In this document: piece after piece, positions 10,702-25,985 of the stretch
Position numbering within the stretch: the stretch's first letter is position 1
Layout of the letters: each line of letters starts with the position of its first letter
Program-made: the position numbers and the translations under genes
Notes under the pieces: generated by a model
Databases searched by the model: none
The model's input: only the letters and a program-made list of their open reading frames with translations
What the model was told of the DNA's origin: nothing
IMG/VR virus record: IMGVR_UViG_3300048883_000251
Coordinates: 1 to 31,100 of that record
DNA length: 31,100 nucleotides
Reading direction: 5' to 3' (one strand)
DNA from: a virus

Positions 10702-12105
10702 TTATACCACTCCTTTTACCGCTCTTTTTAGTGGTTTCTTCCACTGAACACTGTGTTTTGAGCCAAAGGTGGCGGTTGCAGCATCACTAGCCAGTGTTAG
10801 ACAGATCGCGTCGGCTTTATCGGGCGAAGGAAGCCCCCGTTTACGCATCTCGTCCTTACTTTCGATTTTCATCTTGCCACTCGATGTGAACTGATACCTG
10901 GGCGACACTAACTCAGCGAATAAGGCACTATCCACTGGCAGTTTACAATCCTTTGCGGCCAACCAATCCTTCAATTTAAACCACAGCTCTGCCCGCAGAT
11001 TTAAATAAGTCCCACTCATCGAGCTTGCCTCACCGACGTTGATCCCTCTGACCGGTAGATCCAACTCTTGCAGCCGATCTACCACGCCGGCACCTAACCC
11101 TATACTATCGACCAGTATTTCAGTCGGTCGTTGGCGCGGGATAAGGTTGTTGTACCGATCCACCACCCGACCGGTTAGTTCCATCAGTGTTAGCCCCTTC
11201 CAGGATATTAACTCGGTAATGGCGTTGCCGTGACGTATAGCTAACACACTACTATCGGCACCAAACCGTGCCACATCCAAGCCCCAGATCGGTACGGTAT
11301 CAGGATCAGTTTGAATATCTCGATTCTGTGCCGACTCGATCGTGTCAGCTGGGATAACGGTGTTGTCTTCTTTTAATGGAAACTCACCTAGAACACGGAC
11401 CCTGAACTGGTTACTGTCCTCACCATATTTGACTTCCATCTCCCGAACGAACTCATCACTCACGCGTGGGGATTTAAGACACGAAACGTGCATGGTTTTC
11501 CAATCCGCTTTAACCCGGTGATGGGTGTCGTAGAACAGGCCCGATGATCGTGTGGGGTTTCCCAATAATACAGTCGTTGCCGAGTGACCCGACATGGAGC
11601 CAGACGCAGCCTCGAACACTTTCTCATCGATACCACTGGCTTCATCACAGACTAGCAACACGTTTTGTGAATGCACCCCCGCTAACGCTTCGGGCGTTTC
11701 GGCTCTTGCTGTTCTGGCACTGATAAACGCTTCTGATGGCGCTGCCTTTAAAACAACACGGTCGCTTGTCACCTCAAACAGCTCACCCACATAAGGTGGA
11801 AGGTTGCGTATCCAGCTCTTCAACTCCGCAAACAAAGCGTCGAACAACTGAGATGACGTAGGTGCAGTCACCACGATCTTACAAGGAAACCGCGTCGTCA
11901 GATACCACACCATTGCCCAGCTTGCAGCGGTGGATTTACCGGTCCCGTGACCAGACCGCACCGAGATCTTACGCTCACCGTTGGCGATGTGTTCCAGAAA
12001 CTCAGCTTGCCACTCGTCCGGCTGAACTTGTAAAACATCCTTAACGAAAAGCACCGGATTGCTCCGGTACTTGGCGATGAAATCTATGTATGGGTTTTTG
12101 TTCAT
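10702..12105 (-). CDS. terL: Terminase large subunit
   Basis: The 467-aa protein has a Walker A at residues 51-59 (SGHGTGKST), a Walker B with catalytic Glu (LLVCDE, 150-155), and the C-terminal RNase H-like nuclease. The likely acidic residues are D277 (in GLDVARFGADSSVLAI), D333 (LVDSIGLGAG) and D432 (PSPDKADAICL). It packages DNA into the procapsid by ATP hydrolysis and cuts the concatemer. The ATG overlaps the stop of the serine recombinase gene (ATGA, 12102-12105), an unusual coupling. The small subunit is found ~1.9 kb upstream rather than adjacent. A hairpin ends the gene. Confidence 0.92.
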   Translation of the reverse strand: MNKNPYIDFIAKYRSNPVLFVKDVLQVQPDEWQAEFLEHIANGERKISVRSGHGTGKSTAASWAMVWYLTTRFPCKIVVTAPTSSQLFDALFAELKSWIRNLPPYVGELFEVTSDRVVLKAAPSEAFISARTARAETPEALAGVHSQNVLLVCDEASGIDEKVFEAASGSMSGHSATTVLLGNPTRSSGLFYDTHHRVKADWKTMHVSCLKSPRVSDEFVREMEVKYGEDSNQFRVRVLGEFPLKEDNTVIPADTIESAQNRDIQTDPDTVPIWGLDVARFGADSSVLAIRHGNAITELISWKGLTLMELTGRVVDRYNNLIPRQRPTEILVDSIGLGAGVVDRLQELDLPVRGINVGEASSMSGTYLNLRAELWFKLKDWLAAKDCKLPVDSALFAELVSPRYQFTSSGKMKIESKDEMRKRGLPSPDKADAICLTLASDAATATFGSKHSVQWKKPLKRAVKGVV

Positions 12106-12776
12106 GCTGCCTCTTTTAATATAGTAGCGACGGTACTTTTCCCTATTTTACTCCAACCACAGCTATTATCATTAATACTATCGGCGATGGTGCGAAGGCC
12201 AAACCCTAGAGACTTCAACTGAATGATCTCGGCAACAGCAGAAGCTCTCCAGCTCTCTGCAACCACCGTTGACTCCTTCTCGATGCCCTCTTTACGATAA
12301 CCCCAAGGCGCCTTGCCCCCACAGAAACCACCGGATGCTTTCTTGGCGCGTTGCCCTTTAAGGACACGCTCACGGATCAGCTCACGCTCATGATTTGCAA
12401 ACGCTACTATGATATCGAACATCAACTTACCAATAGCGTTGTCCTCTGCGGTGAGTTCGCCTAAGCCATTAACGATCAATCGAACACCGTTGCGCTTCCA
12501 GACATCGATAGTCTTCTGACCATCCAAAGATGACCGGAACAGACGATCTATCGTCGCCACGATAACTACGTCACCTTCAACCAGGTTATCAAACACGGCA
12601 CCCGATGGGCGCTTCAATAAAGGAATGCTACCAGACACGCCCCTATCTTGAACGATAAGTGGTTCGGGTAGATCGTGCGTTAGGGCCAGCCCTTTAGCGA
12701 TGCGCTCCTGTGTATCTAATGATGTGCCATCGATCTGCTGGTCTGAACTGACCCTTCCATAGCCTATGACTTTCAT
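12102..12776 (-). CDS. Serine recombinase (resolvase/invertase type), 224 aa
   Basis: The N-terminal catalytic domain is clear: IGYGRVSSDQQ with nucleophile Ser10 and Arg8, a short gap, then ATIDRLFRSSLD with the catalytic arginines and NHERELIRERV leading to the long E helix. After it comes a KAPWGYRKEG segment and a C-terminal helix-turn-helix-like part (SLGFGLRTIADSINDN, then WSKIGKSTVATIL). The length fits resolvases and invertases, not the large phage integrases. The enzyme cuts and rejoins DNA at short inverted or direct sites through a Ser-DNA bond. It may resolve multimers, invert a segment or integrate the phage. It overlaps both the 62-aa gene upstream and terL downstream by 4 bases. 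Confidence 0.9.
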   Translation of the reverse strand: MKVIGYGRVSSDQQIDGTSLDTQERIAKGLALTHDLPEPLIVQDRGVSGSIPLLKRPSGAVFDNLVEGDVVIVATIDRLFRSSLDGQKTIDVWKRNGVRLIVNGLGELTAEDNAIGKLMFDIIVAFANHERELIRERVLKGQRAKKASGGFCGGKAPWGYRKEGIEKESTVVAESWRASAVAEIIQLKSLGFGLRTIADSINDNSCGWSKIGKSTVATILKEAA

Positions 12777-19840: not shown

Positions 19841-20321
19841 ATTGAGTTTCCCGGCGCTATTCACCCCGACGTCGTTTCAAGGTGAAGGTGAGAAGAAGTA
19901 CGAAGCGACGTTCTTAATTGAAAAAGGTTCAGCGAACCACAAGGCGCTCGAAGCCGAAGTTGAAAAGCTCATCGCCGATGACCTTAAAGGTATCAAGTTA
20001 TCGTCGGACAAGATCTGTTTGAAAGATGGTGATGAGAAAACCTATGACGGTTACGAAGGACATATGTTCATCAAGGCCGCGAGTAAGAAACGCATATCCA
20101 TCGTGGACCAAGACAAAACGCCTCTAACCGAAGAGGATGAGAAGATCTACGGTGGGTGTTATGTGAATGCCATCATTGATCTGTGGGCGCAGAACAACCA
20201 GTACGGCAAGCGGATCAACGCCAGCCTTCGCGGTGTTCAGTTCGATAGCCACGGCGACTCATTCAGTGGCACATCTGCGGCCAGAGATGATGAGTTCGTT
20301 GACTATGAGCCTGACTTCTAA
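19821..20321 (+). CDS. DUF2815 ssDNA-binding protein
   Basis: Start taken at 19821, behind GGAAAAGAAG, giving a 166-aa protein MLLKKVRLSFPALFTPTSFQ... with EKKYEATFLIEKGSANHKAL, a KAASKKRISIVDQD segment, IYGGCYVNAIIDLWAQNNQYG and NASLRGVQFDSHGDSF. This is the standard DUF2815 pattern, a predicted single-stranded-DNA-binding protein. The C-terminus is acidic (DDEFVDYEPDF), as in SSB proteins that recruit partners. It sits between the nuclease and polymerase genes and likely covers ssDNA during replication. Its TAA overlaps the exonuclease ATG (TAATG). Confidence 0.85.
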   Translation: MLLKKVRLSFPALFTPTSFQGEGEKKYEATFLIEKGSANHKALEAEVEKLIADDLKGIKLSSDKICLKDGDEKTYDGYEGHMFIKAASKKRISIVDQDKTPLTEEDEKIYGGCYVNAIIDLWAQNNQYGKRINASLRGVQFDSHGDSFSGTSAARDDEFVDYEPDF

Positions 20322-20863
20322 TGATGTTCGCCGACTTTGAAACATTCTCTGAATGTGACATTAAAAAGTGTGGGGGTGCCAAGTACGTTCGGCACCCTAG
20401 CACCGAGGCTTTGTTGATGAGCTACGCCTTCAATGGTGGTGAGGTTCAAACATGGGACGCAACGCAAGGTCCGATGCCCGAAGAGGTTGACGAGTACCTG
20501 GTGACTGGTGACGACATCTGCTTTCACAACTCGGCGTTTGACCGAGGCGTGTTGGAACACGTTCTTGGGTACAGACTTGAGATCTCACGGTATAAAGACA
20601 CGATGATCATGGCTTATCGGCGTGGGTACATTGGTGGCTTAAAGGATCTCGGCAAGGCGCTTGGGTTAGGTGTTGAACACCGAAAGCAAGCAGCCGATGG
20701 TTGGCGATTAATCCATAAATTCTGTGTGCCACGCAAACCCACGAAGAAAGATCCAAGCGTGAGGATTCTGCCGAGCGACGCGCCAGAGGAATGGGCGAAG
20801 TTCAAAGAGTATGCAGAGCATGATGTAATAGCCATGCGTGAATGCTACCGGAGATTGAAGTAA
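20321..20863 (+). CDS. DNA polymerase A, 3'-5' exonuclease part
   Basis: The 180-aa product is a DEDDy proofreading exonuclease. D5 and E7 are in FADFETFSE, D74 is in HNSAFDRGVLEH, and Y164 and D168 are in EYAEHDVIAMRE. In most related phages this domain is the N-terminus of a single family A polymerase of about 650 aa. Here the frame ends at 20863 and the polymerase part continues in another frame (offset by two bases), with TAATG at the junction. So either the gene is genuinely split or one base is missing in the sequence. It would proofread replication. Confidence 0.85.
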   Translation: MMFADFETFSECDIKKCGGAKYVRHPSTEALLMSYAFNGGEVQTWDATQGPMPEEVDEYLVTGDDICFHNSAFDRGVLEHVLGYRLEISRYKDTMIMAYRRGYIGGLKDLGKALGLGVEHRKQAADGWRLIHKFCVPRKPTKKDPSVRILPSDAPEEWAKFKEYAEHDVIAMRECYRRLK

Positions 20864-22239
20864 TGGAAGACATCATCTGGATGCTCGATCAGAAGATAAA
20901 TGATAAAGGTATTCCGGTGGATACTGAGGCGTTGGAAGCAACACAGATCGAGATAGACAAGGAGCTGATCAGGTTGAATGAAGTCTGCGTCAGCATCTGC
21001 GGATTCCGCGCCAGTCAACGTAACGCGATATTAGATTGGGTTAAAGCCCAAGGGGTCTATTTACCCGACCTCACCAAATTAACAGTTAAAGAAACATTGG
21101 CCGGTGATCTGCCGGGGGATGTTAGGAAAGTATTAAAGATACGGCAGATGGTTGGCAAGACCAGCACTGCAAAAGTGGGGCGCTTACTGAACTGGACTTG
21201 CGAAGATGGTCGGGTCCGTAACACGCTTCAATATTATGGCGCGTATCGGACAGGACGGTTCGCCGGGCGCGGTCCTCAAATTCAGAACTTCCCAAGAGGG
21301 AACCTGAGTGAGCAAGAAGTCGAGGACGCGTTGCGGTTGATCCGTGACGGCGAAACCTACTTAGGCATCGATGACCTTTTCGACACGGTGAGTAGTTTGC
21401 TTCGGGCGTTCATTAAAGCACCAGAGGGTAGACATTTTGTGGTCGCTGACTTGGCGGGCATCGAAGCTAGAGTTTTACCGTGGTTAGCTAGAGATGAAAA
21501 GACCTTGGACATCTTTCGTAATGGTGAGGACATCTATAAGTTCGCCGCAGCTCAGATCTATAAAAAAGAATACGAAGACATCACAAAACCTGAGAGATTC
21601 GTTGGCAAGATAGCGACATTGAGTCTTGGATATGGGGGTGGGATTTTAGCCTTCACGGGAATGGCGAAGGTCTACGGCGTTGAGATGGATGAGGCTTTCG
21701 CCGAAGACATCAAGACCCAATGGCGCGACGCTAATCCTAAGATCGTCCAGCTCTGGCGAACCGTTGAGAAGGCTGCGGTTCATGCCGTCAAACACAAGAA
21801 CCAAACAGTATCCATAGCTGGTGGGAAGTTAAAATTCATTCACGACGGTGATGATTTAAAGATCACGTTGCCATCATCGCGGGCGCTGTACTACCCGAAG
21901 TTTGACTTCACCTACAATAAGTACAAGGGGAACACACTCACATATATGGGCGGCACGGTTACTGGATGGGGTGAGGTAAGAAGCTGGGGTGCAAAACTTT
22001 GTGAAAATCTAACACAGGCCGTTTCCAGAGATGTCTTAGCGCACTCAATGCCAGAGATTGATAAATCTGGATTTGAAATTGTCTTCCACGTTCACGATGA
22101 GATTGTCGCTGAAGTTGACGACGGTGACGAGAAATTAACATCTGATTATTTAGTTGAACTTATGACCACAGGGCACCTGTGGACCAAGGGATTACCGCTG
22201 GATGCTGAAGGGGAAACCATGAAGAGGTATAGGAAATGA
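20863..22239 (+). CDS. DNA polymerase A, polymerase part
   Basis: Start taken at the ATG at 20863 in the TAATG junction; the frame is open to an ATG at 20842. The 458-aa protein begins EDIIWMLDQKINDKGIPVD, the usual segment after the exonuclease. It shows motif A ADLAGIEARVLPWL (residues 195-208), motif B FVGKIATLSLGYGGG (around 246-260) and motif C HVHDEIVAEV with the catalytic Asp and Glu. All active-site motifs are intact. It synthesises DNA, probably together with the separate exonuclease product. It overlaps the VRR-NUC gene by 4 bases. Confidence 0.88.
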   Translation: MEDIIWMLDQKINDKGIPVDTEALEATQIEIDKELIRLNEVCVSICGFRASQRNAILDWVKAQGVYLPDLTKLTVKETLAGDLPGDVRKVLKIRQMVGKTSTAKVGRLLNWTCEDGRVRNTLQYYGAYRTGRFAGRGPQIQNFPRGNLSEQEVEDALRLIRDGETYLGIDDLFDTVSSLLRAFIKAPEGRHFVVADLAGIEARVLPWLARDEKTLDIFRNGEDIYKFAAAQIYKKEYEDITKPERFVGKIATLSLGYGGGILAFTGMAKVYGVEMDEAFAEDIKTQWRDANPKIVQLWRTVEKAAVHAVKHKNQTVSIAGGKLKFIHDGDDLKITLPSSRALYYPKFDFTYNKYKGNTLTYMGGTVTGWGEVRSWGAKLCENLTQAVSRDVLAHSMPEIDKSGFEIVFHVHDEIVAEVDDGDEKLTSDYLVELMTTGHLWTKGLPLDAEGETMKRYRK

Positions 22240-24540: not shown

Positions 24541-24891
24541 ATGAGTGACTACATGAGATTGAAGAAGATTATGGATTCTAAAGCGCTGTTTAGAGATCTG
24601 GCTAACAGCACTGGTGAAGGTAATTTCCGCGTATGGTTGCGAGAGCATATGGAGATCTACGACACGTTTATTCAGTATGCGAGGGAGTACAGGTCGATAG
24701 AGAACAGATCCGTATACTCGGCTAACGCGATATGGCAACGCATACGGTGGGACACTATGCTTAGTGATGACTCCGATAAAGAGTGGAGGTTAAATGCAAT
24801 CTATACCTCATTCTTCGCCCGATTAGCAATGGCTGCTGAACCTGATCTGGAGGGTATGTTTAAGCTCAGAGGGAGTAAGGGTCGAGAATGA
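24541..24891 (+). CDS. Hypothetical phage protein, 116 aa
   Basis: The core STGEGNFRVWLREHMEIYDT, followed by FIQYAREYRS, SANAIWQRIRWDT and a FFARLAMAAEPDL segment, resembles a helical protein often found in phage early regions, whose function is not known. An AGGGGATAA precedes the ATG. It overlaps the methyltransferase gene by 4 bases. Confidence 0.65.
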   Translation: MSDYMRLKKIMDSKALFRDLANSTGEGNFRVWLREHMEIYDTFIQYAREYRSIENRSVYSANAIWQRIRWDTMLSDDSDKEWRLNAIYTSFFARLAMAAEPDLEGMFKLRGSKGRE

Positions 24892-25985
24892 CAGCGTATT
24901 ACAATGAATTTGACCCAAAAGCCGCAGCATGGTTACGGCAACTAATTAAGAATGGAGATATTGCAGATGGAACCGTTGACGAAAGAAGCATCATCGAAGT
25001 CGAAGCCCCCGACCTTAAAGGATTTACTCAACATCACTTCTTTGCAGGAGTTGGCGTTTGGTCCTATGCGCTTAGAAATGCCGGATGGTCAGACGATAGA
25101 CCTGTCGCAACTGCTTCTTTACCCTGTCAGCCATTCTCCGCAGCAGGAAATCAAAAAGGAAAAGAAGACGAGCGACACCTCTTACCCCATTTCCTCGAGC
25201 TTGTTGGACAGTGCAACTTTCACACTATCTTTGGGGAACAAGTTGAAACAGCGATTAAGCATGGATGGCTCGATGATCTATACACAGAAATGGAAAACCA
25301 AGACTACTCCGTTGGGTCGGCAATTATTGGCGCACACAGCATCGGCAAACCGCACATCCGGAAAAGAATCTACTGGGTGGCCCACTCCGCAAGTGAGAGA
25401 TTCAAAAGGAGAGAGGGGTGCAGCAGCACAGGATCGAAAAGGGAATCCAGTGGATCAGCTTGGGATAGCGGCCAAGGTGAGCGGATGGCCAACCCCAATG
25501 GCTTGCGATCAGAGGGGCAGTGCCGGGGTGGGCAAGACGGAGTTGCCGAATATAGCGAAGATAGCCGGGTGGGGAACACCCAACACGATGGACACGCTAC
25601 CAGCGAGATCGGATCAAGCGATGTACAACCAAGCGAGAAACGGCGCTCGAAAGGGTCGGACATTTCCGGGGAACTTACGGGAGCAAGTGGACGAGAGAAG
25701 CCAGAAAGCGTATCAAGATGCGCTACAGGACGCGAGAGAGAACAAGACTCAATTGAGTGGCTATTCTGCCGAGATCAAAAGTACCGGCCAATTAAATCCG
25801 GCATTGAGCCGTTGGTTAATGGGCTTGCCAGAGGCGTGGTGCATAGCAGCGATTCAGTCATTGAGGCAAACGCAAGCGCAGAAGCGCGAACAATCAGGCT
25901 CAAAGGCTACGGTAACGCCATAGTCGCACCAGTGGCAGAGGAGTTTATCCGAGCCACAATGGAGGTGATCAATCAAGCCGACTAG
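24888..25985 (+). CDS. C5-cytosine DNA methyltransferase
   Basis: The 365-aa protein shows the family motifs: motif I HHFFAGVGVWSYALRNAGW, motif IV with catalytic Cys in ASLPCQPFSAAG, motif VI in IFGEQVE, motif VIII in HIRKRIYWVA, and motif X RLKGYGNAIVAPVAEEFI. Between VIII and X the variable target-recognition stretch has many Ser, Gly, Asn and Asp and repeated V(A/G)xSx-like turns, the usual look of this phage Dcm group. It transfers methyl from SAM to cytosine in a specific site, protecting phage DNA. For nearly its full length a second gene lies in another frame. It ends the rightward operon, 3 bases from the converging lysis module. Confidence 0.88.
   Translation: MTAYYNEFDPKAAAWLRQLIKNGDIADGTVDERSIIEVEAPDLKGFTQHHFFAGVGVWSYALRNAGWSDDRPVATASLPCQPFSAAGNQKGKEDERHLLPHFLELVGQCNFHTIFGEQVETAIKHGWLDDLYTEMENQDYSVGSAIIGAHSIGKPHIRKRIYWVAHSASERFKRREGCSSTGSKRESSGSAWDSGQGERMANPNGLRSEGQCRGGQDGVAEYSEDSRVGNTQHDGHATSEIGSSDVQPSEKRRSKGSDISGELTGASGREKPESVSRCATGREREQDSIEWLFCRDQKYRPIKSGIEPLVNGLARGVVHSSDSVIEANASAEARTIRLKGYGNAIVAPVAEEFIRATMEVINQAD
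24967..25923 (+). CDS. Embedded overlapping gene inside the methyltransferase gene, 318 aa
   Basis: This frame, shifted +1 relative to the methyltransferase, is open for more than 320 codons. I place its start at the ATG at 24967 because GGAG (24954-24957) precedes it by 9 bases; an earlier ATG at 24952 overlaps that site. It has three GW(P/G)TPxxxD repeats: GWPTPQVRD (25375), GWPTPMACD (25483) and GWGTPNTMD (25567). It ends with GQLNPALSRWLMGLPEAWC. I recall similar WPTP...LNPALSRWLMGLP proteins annotated in other phages, often as methyltransferase-related or hypothetical. Their function is unknown to me. Both frames look protein-like, so this is a strong dual-coding candidate. Confidence 0.7.
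   Translation: MEPLTKEASSKSKPPTLKDLLNITSLQELAFGPMRLEMPDGQTIDLSQLLLYPVSHSPQQEIKKEKKTSDTSYPISSSLLDSATFTLSLGNKLKQRLSMDGSMIYTQKWKTKTTPLGRQLLAHTASANRTSGKESTGWPTPQVRDSKGERGAAAQDRKGNPVDQLGIAAKVSGWPTPMACDQRGSAGVGKTELPNIAKIAGWGTPNTMDTLPARSDQAMYNQARNGARKGRTFPGNLREQVDERSQKAYQDALQDARENKTQLSGYSAEIKSTGQLNPALSRWLMGLPEAWCIAAIQSLRQTQAQKREQSGSKATVTP

Follow-up and report, generated by a model that had tools for sequence, protein, structure and literature searches.

A frame nested in a phage C5-cytosine methyltransferase gene probably encodes the recognition subunit of a two-polypeptide enzyme

Introduction

Whether a single stretch of phage DNA can encode both parts of one DNA-methylating enzyme is the question raised by a locus in a viral sequence of 31,100 nucleotides (IMG/VR record IMGVR_UViG_3300048883_000251, positions 1 to 31,100), referred to here as the window. 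A gene for a C5-methyltransferase large-domain polypeptide of 365 residues, alpha (24888..25985, + strand), contains within it a +1-frame open reading frame of 318 residues, beta (24967..25923, + strand). In canonical C5-methyltransferases, the small, target-recognising domain is composed of a variable region and motif IX, which reads R-x-L-T-P-R-E-x-A-R-L-M/Q-G-F-P-D-x-F. A two-part DNA-methylating enzyme of the sort considered here, which is a rare one, is known in E. coli. An initial annotation of the window, made from the letters alone, had described the two frames as jointly open on the same strand, which they are, and had taken beta for a partner or specificity factor made from the DNA of its own enzyme; this idea now appears the most likely one, through the resemblance of the beta tail to motif IX.

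The catalytic chain

Alpha is assigned to the C5-methyltransferases by its matches to PF00145 (1.7e-15, 57.8 bits against a cut-off of 22) and phrog_363 (2e-67), and it carries the PCQ and ENV/EQV catalytic motifs. Motifs I to VIII and X are present, and those already read in the long frame by the initial annotation are all in place, namely motif I (FAGVG, 25041..25055), motif IV (SLPCQ, with the catalytic cysteine, 25116..25130), motif VI (GEQV, 25233..25244) and motif VIII (PHIRKR, 25350..25367), each recognised by sequence and conservation, as well as motif X (YGNAIV, 25908..25925), all on the + strand. The canonical pattern of motif IX was found in none of 107 alpha sequences. In the structural model, the catalytic fold is predicted with confidence and has M.HhaI as its best match in the PDB (Z 15.7, rmsd 2.7, 171 aligned residues), and residues 173–286 (25404..25745, +) are predicted to be disordered (pLDDT < 50) and are poorly conserved; the DNA of this stretch holds two of the three GWPTP modules of beta. 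Alpha has its catalytic fold and motifs in common with single-chain enzymes of the M.HhaI/Dcm type, which differ in that a single chain unites the catalytic motifs with motif IX and the recognition domain.

Immediately upstream, a gene at 24541-24891 (+), whose product has no Pfam match, ends in an ATGA that overlaps the alpha start at 24888, which suggests translational coupling. Elsewhere in the window, a Family A DNA polymerase is spread over two open reading frames (20321-20863 and 20842-22239, +) that overlap by 22 nt, with an exonuclease-like part that matches PF01612 weakly (0.0011) and a polymerase part that matches PF00476 (1.6e-22); a natural split, a frameshift or a sequence error may be responsible. 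A serine recombinase/resolvase gene (12102-12776, −; PF00239, 3.9e-24) adjoins the large terminase gene, and a long tail-fibre-like open reading frame with NTTG...N repeats (1-1452, −) runs off the end of the window.

The probable start site of beta

The ATG of beta at 24967 is preceded at a distance of 9 nt by GGAG (24954..24957, +), a Shine-Dalgarno-like sequence to which the initial annotation had correctly pointed; an alternative upstream ATG at 24952 would give a product of 323 residues with the same stop at 25923. When a start site was defined as a +1-frame ATG accompanied by four or more matching Shine-Dalgarno bases, and synonymous shuffling was taken as the null, such sites were present in the beta frame of 85 of 107 homologues (null mean 25.9, maximum 44), and none was found in the +2 frame among the same 107. 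The internal start is conserved; it typically reads GAAAGGAGTATTGAAG-ATG at alpha nucleotide 109, and members of the clade to which the window belongs have AATGGAGATATTGCAG-ATG at alpha nucleotide 79.

This excess favours independent initiation over frameshifting, by which the N-terminus of alpha would be fused to the C-terminus of beta, motifs I to VIII and IX would come to lie in one chain, and one gene would yield enzymes with two recognition regions. The common strand, the +1 register and the long, jointly open stretch would suit such a fusion, as would locus L277 and Gordonia phage Gmala1, where the alpha frame has motifs I to VIII only and the +1 frame then supplies both IX and X. However, the beta frame is open for 60–80 codons upstream of its conserved core, and since beta ends ahead of motif X in most members, the fusion would be without this motif there; given also the Shine-Dalgarno sequence and ATG kept in the beta frame, frameshifting is considered improbable.

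The beta tail and motif IX

The database search that the initial annotation had proposed for the 318-residue product of the +1 frame returned phrog_1008 (4e-24) and no match in Pfam, NCBIfam, PADLOC or the PDB. A search of a viral library gave mainly phage relatives at significant E-values. Over its full length, the model of beta is of low quality (pLDDT 61, pTM 0.27), and no convincing match came from the structural search (best Z 3.6); a helix followed by a β-hairpin (residues 82–127, 25210..25347, +) is among the best-predicted segments. Downstream of it, at the positions described before, lie the three modules GWPTPQVRD (25375..25401, +), GWPTPMACD (25483..25509, +) and GWGTPNTMD (25567..25593, +), the number of which varies between beta proteins. 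The suggestion that one short repeat shapes both proteins holds in so far as the same DNA encodes both, but the "turns" of the methyltransferase look like by-products, since the repeat region is somewhat better conserved in the +1 frame and the methyltransferase frame is variable and predicted to be disordered there.

The tail of beta, LNPALSRWLMGLPEAW (25792..25839, +), had likewise been placed correctly, and its identity had been missed. When the profile of the beta family was compared with that of canonical enzymes, the tail alone aligned, and it did so exactly on motif IX (LTPRECARLMGFPDSF). Tails from more distant phage relatives fall in the same register, with an E-value of 0.0035 and no score as high among 100 column shuffles; the match extends over 16–20 residues, and the test consisted of a single predicted comparison. 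Beta therefore contains a segment like motif IX, which alpha lacks. On one viral contig, L203, motifs I to VIII, the same tail and motif X follow one another in a single frame, and residues 204–282 match phrog_1008 (profile 224–317) with an E-value of 2.9e-28. In this contig and its source record, phrog_1008 matches twice, with profile positions 40–174 off the methyltransferase frame and 224–318 in it, which looks like a natural case of alpha having acquired the beta tail.

From the match of the tail to motif IX, the absence of this motif from alpha and the one-frame arrangement of L203, beta is best read as a putative small-domain subunit that provides recognition in a methyltransferase of two polypeptides and whose gene lies within that of its partner. 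Combined with the fold and the disorder predicted for alpha, the motif IX evidence leads to a reading in which alpha corresponds to the large domain of one enzyme and beta to the small one, and the recognition region would then reside in beta and not in alpha. Alternatively, beta could be a real but separate protein, such as an anti-restriction protein, a regulator or a nuclease, which is overprinted on the alpha gene and has no role in methylation. Its variable number of modules, its poor model and its lack of relatives in Pfam, the PDB and PADLOC would agree with this, but in the sets examined (the bacterial loci and the viral loci listed, contig-end fragments aside) beta was not found away from a methyltransferase, and a separate protein would leave aside the motif IX match, the one-frame relative that matches the beta profile and the missing motif in alpha, so that it is given little chance.

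Selection on both frames

In the window, the +1 frame is open over 325 codons, a run equalled in none of 200 synonymous-codon permutations, the longest of which reached 286; the +2 frame of the alpha gene has 22 stops. The initial annotation had expected WLMGLP-type relatives in other phages and a conserved overlap, and both expectations were borne out. A tblastn search with the +1 protein returned 216 phage records, and in the records compared its positions coincide with those of the alpha matches. Among 55 homologues picked through alpha alone, without use of the +1 frame, this frame is open for about 220–395 codons, with a mean of 19 stops in the +2 frame. In 53 of the 55, the beta frame has no interruption between alpha codon 100 and the end of the tail motif, the exceptions being L024, where the pattern of the tail motif was not found, and L039.

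The comparison of synonymous sites across homologues, an approach already suggested for this locus, revealed frozen sites and an inverted pattern in the tail; neither frequent stops nor an absence of purifying selection, the outcomes regarded beforehand as fatal to dual coding, was found. Between close pairs, four-fold sites of the methyltransferase gene differ at 3–15%, and those of neighbouring genes in the same pairs typically at about 30–67%, although the proteins of the neighbours are often more conserved than the methyltransferase. In the L024/L029 pair, alpha is 88% identical with 5 of 168 four-fold sites changed, and the neighbours are 96–97% identical with 30% changed; in a few pairs (L033/L034, L040/L046), the neighbour-gene controls are low as well. 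Synonymous constraint becomes strong at the helix and hairpin segment of beta, holds from about codon 106 to about codon 338 of alpha and weakens where beta ends, fading at motif X of alpha, within which the beta stop falls. In codons 311–325, differences affect first positions in 55% of comparisons and third positions in 15%, and amino acid identity is 0.72 for beta versus 0.39 for alpha; from the inverted rates, the +1 frame is the one that is kept there. The constraint is not uniform along beta and is weak in its first ~80 residues when distant relatives are compared.

When the codon pairs of two homologues were shuffled jointly, the mean Z was 2.2 for the +1 frame versus 0.25 for the +2 frame; this test is weak because third-position conservation is retained. 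That the second frame is untranslated, and open through base composition, codon use or constraint at the DNA or RNA level, has next to no probability, for although many homologues are GC-rich, permutation p-values for single homologue genes are modest in some cases (0.005–0.09) and most pairwise beta similarity in the joint shuffling is already expected from alpha similarity, the four-fold freeze relative to neighbouring genes, the inverted codon-position rates, the excess of start sites and a frame that is open in AT-richer genomes as well stand against it. Dual coding at 24967–25923 is real and far beyond chance, and both frames are under selection. Together, the frame open in 53 of 55 homologues, the frozen synonymous sites, the inverted substitution pattern around the tail and the start-site excess make it very likely that beta is a separately translated, selected gene.

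Distribution and annotation

When bacterial genomes were scanned with the beta profile, 219 places were found, and each of the 80 loci retained also has a methyltransferase in the −1 frame. When viral contigs were searched with a variant of the beta tail that had been designed independently of the overlap, at least 80 loci were obtained; among those listed, nearly all have a methyltransferase-like −1 frame, except for L203, L277, L246 (tail in shifted frame) and a few contig-end fragments. Within the Enterobacterales, 4 of 296 genomes have a match, a scarcity that is as expected for prophage genes. Stops suspected within the beta hits of these genomes were rejected, as they lie outside the open reading frames and the frames read open, and actinophage methyltransferases were rejected as beta-less examples after a reading of their frames revealed the overlap there too.

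The nested frame is common among phages and prophages and is almost never annotated. The overlap occurs in phages that infect proteobacteria, mycobacteria or Paenibacillus, and the model phages epsilon15 and N15, a coliphage in which gene 58 is the one concerned, are members of the family. In most records alpha alone is annotated. Both frames are annotated in Paenibacillus phage Leyra, and the same overlap is unannotated in Mycobacterium phage Zerg. Both are also annotated in K1ind2 and K1H, where beta is called "DNA methyltransferase" or "Mte8-like", a GenBank name for which no explanatory paper was found in the literature. Some loci depart from the usual layout: in L185 (Krischvirus LF73P4, 1486-2344), the alpha frame stops after motif VIII and the beta frame continues into the usual C-terminus of alpha with motif X, as if the two frames had been exchanged by a single indel, and in L045, L056 and L062 a stop interrupts the alpha frame while the beta frame is still open, which may reflect sequence errors or a real loss of alpha.

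Comparison with known split methyltransferases

M.AquI (CYCGRG) is a split C5-methyltransferase in which the break lies in the variable region and the small chain contains motifs IX and X. The window locus resembles it in its two predicted polypeptides, the break in the variable region and the position of motif IX in the small chain, and differs from it in that motif X stays in alpha; L277 and Gmala1 are nearer to the M.AquI layout, and motifs IX and X share the small chain in L277 and L195. A closer likeness, judged by published motif layout, is to M.EcoHK31I; its small gene is reportedly nested in the large gene in another frame, as beta is in alpha.

In a published account of M.EcoHK31I (YGGCCR), motifs I to VIII and X are located in the larger polypeptide and motif IX in the smaller, the two proteins are described as needed in vitro according to work cited there, and it is the large subunit, rather than the small, that is credited with the predicted recognition domain (PMC3404938). 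Judged from sequence, the window locus likewise has a large chain with motifs I to VIII and X but without IX, and a small chain with IX. It differs in that the counterpart of the recognition domain in alpha is predicted to be disordered and beta, with its 318 residues, has the GWPTP modules, and in that it is phage-borne, with no partner nuclease recognised. By motif layout, the window locus would be a much wider-spread case of the M.EcoHK31I kind. The view of the initial annotation that the arrangement is new is not supported, since the two-polypeptide split had already been published (PMC3404938); what is new is its extent and the near-total lack of annotation. In phrog_363 and phrog_1008 ("DNA methyltransferase"), alpha and beta belong to separate families, and the search output gives no hint of two frames in one locus. 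A search of the open literature, with subscription journals and REBASE outside it, yielded no previous account of an overlap that extends across phages.

Proposed enzyme and implications

The preferred reading, in which we have good confidence, is that a single stretch of DNA at this locus specifies both chains of a two-polypeptide C5-cytosine DNA methyltransferase, with beta nested in alpha. Alpha would be the catalytic large domain with motifs I to VIII and X, and beta, translated on its own from the internal Shine-Dalgarno sequence and ATG in the +1 frame, would supply motif IX and the variable GWPTP-module region as the target-recognising small domain. Together they would make up a single methylating enzyme for phage DNA, and this methylation probably guards against host restriction. 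We infer that beta is made, binds alpha and is needed for activity, and that the methylation is protective.

A broader reading, put forward tentatively and at somewhat less than even chances, is that, in a large share of the C5-methyltransferases of phages and prophages, the enzyme depends strictly on a second, recognition subunit that is nested and mostly unannotated, and that sequence specificity would shift through the tandem gain and loss of GWPTP modules in this subunit. Alpha would be only a tolerant, disordered linker at that place, which would allow a single DNA segment to encode the two proteins in phages from several bacterial phyla.

A same-strand overlap of about 320 codons that is selected in both frames is a clear case of its kind. 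If beta is required, tests of activity or specificity that use alpha alone, for example with codon-optimised genes, would wrongly make the enzyme look inactive, and many genome annotations would be without half of an enzyme. With a disordered stretch of one protein lying over conserved modules of the other, the locus also offers a tractable case of one DNA segment that encodes two proteins.
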